From Leptolyngbya sp. CCY15150 (GTDB lineage Bacteria; Cyanobacteriota; Cyanobacteriia; RECH01), in assembly GCF_016888135.1 (NCBI RefSeq), contig NZ_JACSWB010000174.1:62001-126000 (forward strand): a stretch of 64,000 nt of DNA, given 5' to 3'. Position numbers and translations under genes: made by a program. The notes under the pieces were generated by a model. That model saw only the letters and a program-made list of their open reading frames with translations, was not told the origin of the DNA and made no database searches. Positions 39,144 through 39,914 of this stretch are shown here, one piece after another; within the stretch, counting starts at the first letter, position 1, and every line of letters starts with the position of its first letter.

Positions 39144-39632
39144 TTAAGCAGGGGTGACTTGTACAATCAGCGCCCGCCGATCAAAAGACTGTACCTTGGC
39201 TGATTCACCTAAATCGGTCACAACCCGCTCTAGTAGCTCAGCGGCGCGATCGCGATGCTGGTGTTCCCGTCCCCGTAATCGCACTTGGAATTTGACAGAA
39301 TCACCTTTGTCTAGCCATTCAACAGCTCGCTTAATCCGAAGGCTGTAGTCTGATTCACCCACATTGGGGCGCAGCTTCACTTCCTTGACCGTGGGCTTAC
39401 TGGTATTCTGACGATGGCGTTTCTTTTGTTGGTATTGATGTTTACCGTAGTCCAGGATTTTAGCAACTGGAACATCCTTGGACTCAGAAACCAAGACTAG
39501 ATCCAACCCCACACTCTCAGCAAGCTGCAGGGCATCGCGGGTCTCAGTTACGCCACGGTTGGTGTTTTCATGGTCAATCAGCAAAACACGCGGCGATCGA
39601 ATGCGGTGGTTAATGAGTTGCTTATTAGCGAT
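39144..39632 (-). CDS. infC: Translation initiation factor IF-3, AUC start
   Basis: Binds the 30S subunit, keeps it free of 50S and checks the start codon and initiator tRNA. The conserved N terminus NKQLINHRIRSPRVLLIDHENTNRGV continues upstream of the first conventional start codon (TTG 39584). In that frame an in-frame TAA at 39645-39647 leaves no ATG, GTG or TTG, so initiation must use a rare codon. ATC at 39630-39632 is best, seven bases after AGAGGA (39640-39645). It gives 162 residues, starting MANKQL. E. coli infC uses AUU for self-regulation; a similar control is inferred here. KILDYGKHQYQQKK and the C-terminal ribosome-binding domain are intact. Confidence 0.9.
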   Translation of the reverse strand: MANKQLINHRIRSPRVLLIDHENTNRGVTETRDALQLAESVGLDLVLVSESKDVPVAKILDYGKHQYQQKKRHRQNTSKPTVKEVKLRPNVGESDYSLRIKRAVEWLDKGDSVKFQVRLRGREHQHRDRAAELLERVVTDLGESAKVQSFDRRALIVQVTPA

Positions 39633-39914
39633 AGCTCTATCCTCTTAAAACTCAACATGTTTGACGGTAGTCGGAACCCTACCGATGGCCATCTCGACAC
39701 AAATTGGCTTCATGGCTCGAAGCTAGCCTGAGCCGCTGACTCGTTGCTTCGGCACGATGCCTAGGTGCGGCGAGATACTGGTTCAGACTTGGACATTCGC
39801 ATCAGATTACTCTACTTCTAGAGTAACCTTATCAAAGCTTGGATCCAACATCATCGAACCAGAGTTGGATCTGAAATTCACGAAACTTTGCATCGCTACT
39901 CCCCCACATTGCCT

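Follow-up and report, generated by a model that had tools for sequence, protein, structure and literature searches.

The window analysed here, a stretch of 64,000 nucleotides from Leptolyngbya sp. CCY15150 (genome G000, contig C174, positions 62001-126000), contains a gene on its minus strand at 39144-39632 that encodes a complete IF-3. On sequence grounds this is not an ordinary infC; it is a member of a separate and divergent IF-3 lineage, here called type 2. Initiation of the window gene at an AUC codon is strongly supported by its conservation among relatives, and it is probable that type-2 infC is under translational feedback by IF-3 through its AUH start (AUC, AUU or AUA), as is infC in E. 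coli.

The minus strand from 39660 to 39600 contains TTTTAAGAGGATAGAGCTATCGCTAATAAGCAACTC. Before the conserved amino terminus, the IF-3 frame reads TAA GAG GAT AGA GCT ATC GCT AAT AAG CAA, and its translation around the ATC is stop-E-D-R-A-I-A-N-K-Q-L-I-N. The in-frame TAA at 39645-39647 bars any upstream start, and from there down to the TTG at 39582-39584 no ATG, GTG or TTG occurs in the IF-3 frame. The ATC at 39630-39632 is preceded, with a spacing of 7, by the Shine-Dalgarno (SD) sequence AGAGGA at 39640-39645, and directly by a T at -1 (39633). Counted from this codon, the gene has 162 codons including the AUC start, plus the stop. Its product, which we infer to begin with fMet, would be 162 amino acids long, versus 146 from the TTG. 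The 16 residues that use of the TTG would drop belong to the conserved part of IF-3, with the Pfam IF3_N match beginning at residue 7 and the TIGR00168 match at residue 3, and with a profile alignment to the solved N-domain structure of IF-3 (1tif) that begins at position 3. The protein also scores over the curated cut-offs of TIGR00168 (153.3 bits vs 60), PF05198 (85.7 vs 26.9) and PF00707 (73.4 vs 34.8). The earlier note had described conserved IF-3 sequence upstream of the first usual start codon, a TAA followed by no usual start before the TTG, an ATC with AGAGGA seven bases before it, and a shortening by 16 residues if a usual start were used; the profile alignments, the reading of the frame and the computed lengths agree with it on all these points. 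A sequencing error is unlikely, since two other genomes of the same genus (G001 and G002) share the identical ATC with slightly different leaders. The ATC is the only plausible start of the window gene.

The same note had taken the gene for the infC of this genome, and here it was mistaken. The canonical infC of G000 lies on the same contig at 209.7 kb, about 108 kb away from the window gene; it is ATG-started (MVLTKKNRNRDLPTINERIRFP), and it scores 240 bits with TIGR00168. Its product is about 42-44% identical to the window protein, which itself shares 63-100% identity with the type-2 genes found in other cyanobacteria. Canonical cyanobacterial infC genes (L001, L122-L151) belong to the same IF-3 family and have both domains, but they are only about 38-48% identical to type 2 and fall into a separate clade. 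A tree was built from 103 type-2 and 22 canonical proteins together with E. coli IF-3, whose sequence agrees with the PDB chain aligned. In it type 2 forms one clade, with the type-2 and canonical sets on opposite sides of the branch (SH-aLRT 99 and 96, by a quick method). Among 145 sampled genomes (G000 included), 37 have a gene of the window's type at >220 bits, and the canonical copies there score ~115-130 bits. In a phylum-wide draw of 386 genomes with a completeness of at least 95%, 25 have a type-2 gene, all of them within the window's class. Three IF-3 genes are found in Phormidium sp. LEGE 05292 and likewise in Phormidium tenue FACHB-886 (L152 and L153 for the two strains), the third being a divergent canonical-like copy.

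The upstream regions of the relatives tell the same story as that of the window gene. ATC, ATT or ATA is found at the AUH place in all of 30 loci and in all of a further 80 loci from named genomes, which span Leptolyngbya, Nodosilinea, Phormidium, Calothrix, Nostoc, Scytonema, Brasilonema, Richelia, Spirulina and Coleofasciculus. After removal of redundancy, starts were also scored by a rule that chose freely among ATC, ATA, ATT, ATG, GTG, TTG, CTG and ACG according to SD quality. This gave ATC in 82, ATT in 23 and ATA in 8 of 113 distinct type-2 genes, and no other triplet; clustering at 90% identity leaves 63 clusters with ATC in 54, ATT in 3 and ATA in 6. In nearly all type-2 genes the codon chosen by the rule is the homologous one. 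One locus (L079) fell outside the rule, with ATT ATC after AAGGGGA. As the arrangement is present in all 30 and all 80 relative loci and in 113/113 rule-scored genes, it is not due to chance. Many type-2 genes (L006, L011, L026, L044 and others) have a tandem ATT ATC, so that the triplet just before the start might also serve as an AUH start, with a tighter SD spacing.

A 4-nt SD core at -16 to -4 occurs in 107/113 type-2 genes, in most of them with the same core and distance as in the window gene, versus 0/34 canonical infC genes, although the type-2 count is partly circular because the start-picking rule itself used the SD. The core is also found in just 3 of the 22 ATG-started reading frames of at least 180 aa in the window, so that the strong SD is special to type 2 and does not reflect a general habit of this genome. 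A profile of the type-2 leaders has (A/G)GAGG at -13 to -9 and T at -1 as its prominent elements, the latter in 99/113 type-2 genes vs 9/34 canonical ones (p 2e-11). A T-rich tract stands before the SD in the window (39647-39655) and in relatives, its conserved positions being -23 (T), -20 (A) and -17 to -15 (TTT). The canonical genes start with ATG or GTG, save for one unclear case (L169) in which the nearest candidate is TTG. Every GTG start shown for canonical infC has CCT or CT directly before it.

Constraint on the encoded protein sets in at the AUH codon. Within type 2, dN/dS is 0.14 for codons 2-16 and 0.04 for codons 17-40, versus 0.69 for upstream pseudo-codons, and this step points to coding that begins at the AUH and to translation of the stretch before the TTG. 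A start at TTG 39584, giving a shortened protein, is therefore highly improbable: no usual start codon precedes it in frame, but it would cut off part of the N-domain and leave the purifying selection on codons 2-16 unaccounted for. Nor is there a conserved downstream start among the relatives, as their first usual start ranges from 4 to 106 codons in. The start triplet is also not simply an isoleucine codon, because its usage differs from that of the internal isoleucine codons of the same genes (ATT 576, ATC 349, ATA 33; chi-square p 8e-15). An upstream start with the AUH as an internal isoleucine was considered and rejected, with an in-frame ATG, GTG or TTG between the stop and the AUH in only 30/113 genes and an ATG in 6; the least clear type-2 case is L114, with an ATG two codons before the ATC. 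Parsimony finds only 7 codon changes within type 2, none of them to G (p about 0.06). Taken alone this count is weak support; the absence of a usual start in all 113 genes, the onset of constraint at the AUH and the difference from canonical infC are stronger.

In the window the type-2 gene is flanked by genes for an asparaginase II, a CGLD27-like protein, a DUF938 protein and an M24 peptidase, and among the other type-2 loci these neighbours were found only in the near-identical L042. Operon structure or translational coupling was rejected for want of shared gene neighbours, and coupling to an upstream gene is for the same reason not the cause of the unusual start. The leader RNA gave no Rfam match and no excess folding (mean z +0.57); two of the three leaders from the window's genus form a fold that covers the start codon, but this is not general in type 2. 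Scans for promoters and terminators yielded no hit better than chance. A phage or virus origin was rejected too, with no relative in viral contigs.

We take the C-domain arginines R99, R131, R147 and R168 (E. coli numbering) to have a functional role, and the window protein has all four. R99, D106, R131 and R133 are kept in 103/103 type-2 proteins, R147 in 98/103 and R168 in 91/103. The N-domain positions R25, Q33 and R66 presumably bear on activity and do not define the family. In nearly all type-2 proteins they are replaced by L/F, N and K, and R116 is mostly E or Q but also others; at all four, most canonical copies have the same residue as E. coli. Because of these changes in the N-domain and at R116, the activity of type-2 IF-3 may differ. 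The isolated C-domain of IF-3 is reported in a review to reject non-canonical complexes like the whole factor (PMC4611024), which makes it plausible that type-2 IF-3 discriminates between start codons.

In some genomes type 2 seems to be the only IF-3. As an example, searches with IF3_N and with the canonical protein found only type-2 matches in five genomes that are 95-100% complete (G046, G070, G102, G140 and G133). Only type-2 IF-3 was likewise found in Richelia HH01, a second Richelia, strain ESFC-1, Kaiparowitsia and several others. Some of the genomes with type 2 alone are drafts. In Nodosilinea nodulosa PCC 7104 and relatives there are two type-2 copies, and a canonical copy was not found. 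The second copies (L154-L162, from Nodosilinea and relatives, L156 being from the filamentous cyanobacterium CCP5) mostly begin close to IAKKQKAIVNRDIRDPEVLL, and their apparent start is again ATC. Since IF-3 is essential in bacteria (PMC5472188) and type 2 is the sole IF-3 found in some genomes, it very likely works as IF-3 in the cell. A report that P. pseudopriestleyi lacks infC (PMC10812107) may reflect gaps in the assembly, or a species whose sole IF-3 is of type 2 and was overlooked in annotation.

How might such a start codon act? The strong SD would recruit the 30S subunit to type-2 infC, and perhaps so would the U at -1, which might pair with A37 of the initiator tRNA as a fourth base pair. 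The AUH codon, whose third base is not G, would then expose the initiation complex to rejection by IF-3. With free IF-3 plentiful, complexes would be rejected and less type-2 IF-3 made; with IF-3 scarce, the AUC would be used. It is known that IF-3 discriminates against AUU, AUC and AUA and spares the G-ending AUG, GUG and UUG (PMC4611024), and the start codons seen in type-2 infC are precisely the AU-N triplets that are discriminated against, with G never at the third base. These IF-3 genes have the start site expected of an infC-type autocontrol, with AUU, AUC or AUA in 113/113 and an SD in 107, and we infer that feedback by IF-3 operates on type-2 infC. Pure self-control would be confined to genomes with type 2 only. 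In genomes with both genes, including that of the window, feedback would act on the type-2 copy and its output would be set by total IF-3; both proteins may drive it there. The self-feedback in the earlier note therefore holds in part: initiation at AUC is strongly supported and feedback is the likeliest reason for it, but the gene is a second IF-3 and not an ordinary infC.

A conserved AUH codon would also serve plain low expression without feedback, and this counts against the feedback reading. The codon might merely limit the dose, holding a second IF-3 at a low fixed level with no control by IF-3 concentration. Near-cognate starts are generally weak, and the genome already has a canonical IF-3 started at AUG. 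We nevertheless regard dose limiting as unlikely: the weak codon is accompanied by a conserved strong SD and U at -1, so that the site looks tuned rather than weak, and the AUH is kept even in genomes where no IF-3 but type 2 was found and the whole supply must come from it. Moreover, GUG, UUG, CUG or a poor SD would also lower expression, and yet these are not found. Another possibility is that, where both IF-3s are present, the canonical one represses an AUH-started reserve, while type 2 discriminates poorly and there is no true self-feedback. The design of start and SD differs between the two genes, and the N-domain residues are changed in type 2, as such an arrangement might lead one to expect. 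However, the C-domain residues are kept, and type-2-only genomes keep the AUH where repression by a canonical IF-3 cannot apply, so that this is rather improbable as well.

Feedback by IF-3 on type-2 infC may also be part of a larger picture, offered here tentatively and with considerable doubt. Type 2 could be an ancient additional branch of IF-3 in which the start is always AUH and the N-domain has been remodelled; with the AUG-started, SD-less canonical IF-3 it would form a two-factor control loop, and it would have replaced that factor altogether in Nodosilinea, Phormidesmis-like cyanobacteria and Richelia, possibly with a changed selection of start sites across the cell. It is worth noting that an IF-3-sensitive start codon has been kept without one usual start in 113 genes, while canonical infC uses AUG, and that the second IF-3 is apparently able to substitute for the canonical factor. 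A gene finder that accepts only ATG, GTG and TTG would, absent an upstream start, truncate type-2 genes by 4 to 106 codons, and this may be why the lineage has attracted little notice. Cyanobacteria, which may have either IF-3 or both, offer a natural setting in which to ask whether AUH starts are a gauge of IF-3 activity.

The open-access literature searched gave no account of cyanobacteria with an additional IF-3 that starts at AUH. An arXiv survey by Gvozdjak and Samanta from 2020 (cited in PMC9845219) reportedly treats genes that prefer non-AUG starts, and may cover part of the finding. Traces are seen in two IF-3 BLAST hits in Geitlerinema PCC 7407 and strain JSC-12 (PMC4971617). The AUH-start trick itself is known from E. 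coli; it is the second cyanobacterial IF-3 lineage that seems not to have been described before.

Among known systems, E. coli has one IF-3, and in Myxococcus the dsg gene starts at AUC. PMC2268962 cites dsg as an IF-3-like gene. In Streptomyces, sigR has a GTC start and is repressed by IF-3 (PMC5472188); it has, as is proposed for type 2, a non-canonical start under IF-3 restraint, but the target is a sigma factor and not IF-3. Streptomyces infC starts with ATC and is said to be often misannotated (PMC5472188). Here the likeness is closer, an IF-3 gene with the same start codon, in a different phylum and with one infC described (PMC5472188). In E. coli, infC has an ATT start and IF-3 autoregulation (Butler et al. 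1986, 1987, cited in PMC5472188). Both this gene and type 2 are IF-3 genes with an AUH start, autocontrol being shown in E. coli and proposed for type 2, whereas in G000 the gene with the AUH is an additional, divergent IF-3, and its canonical infC has an ATG without an SD.
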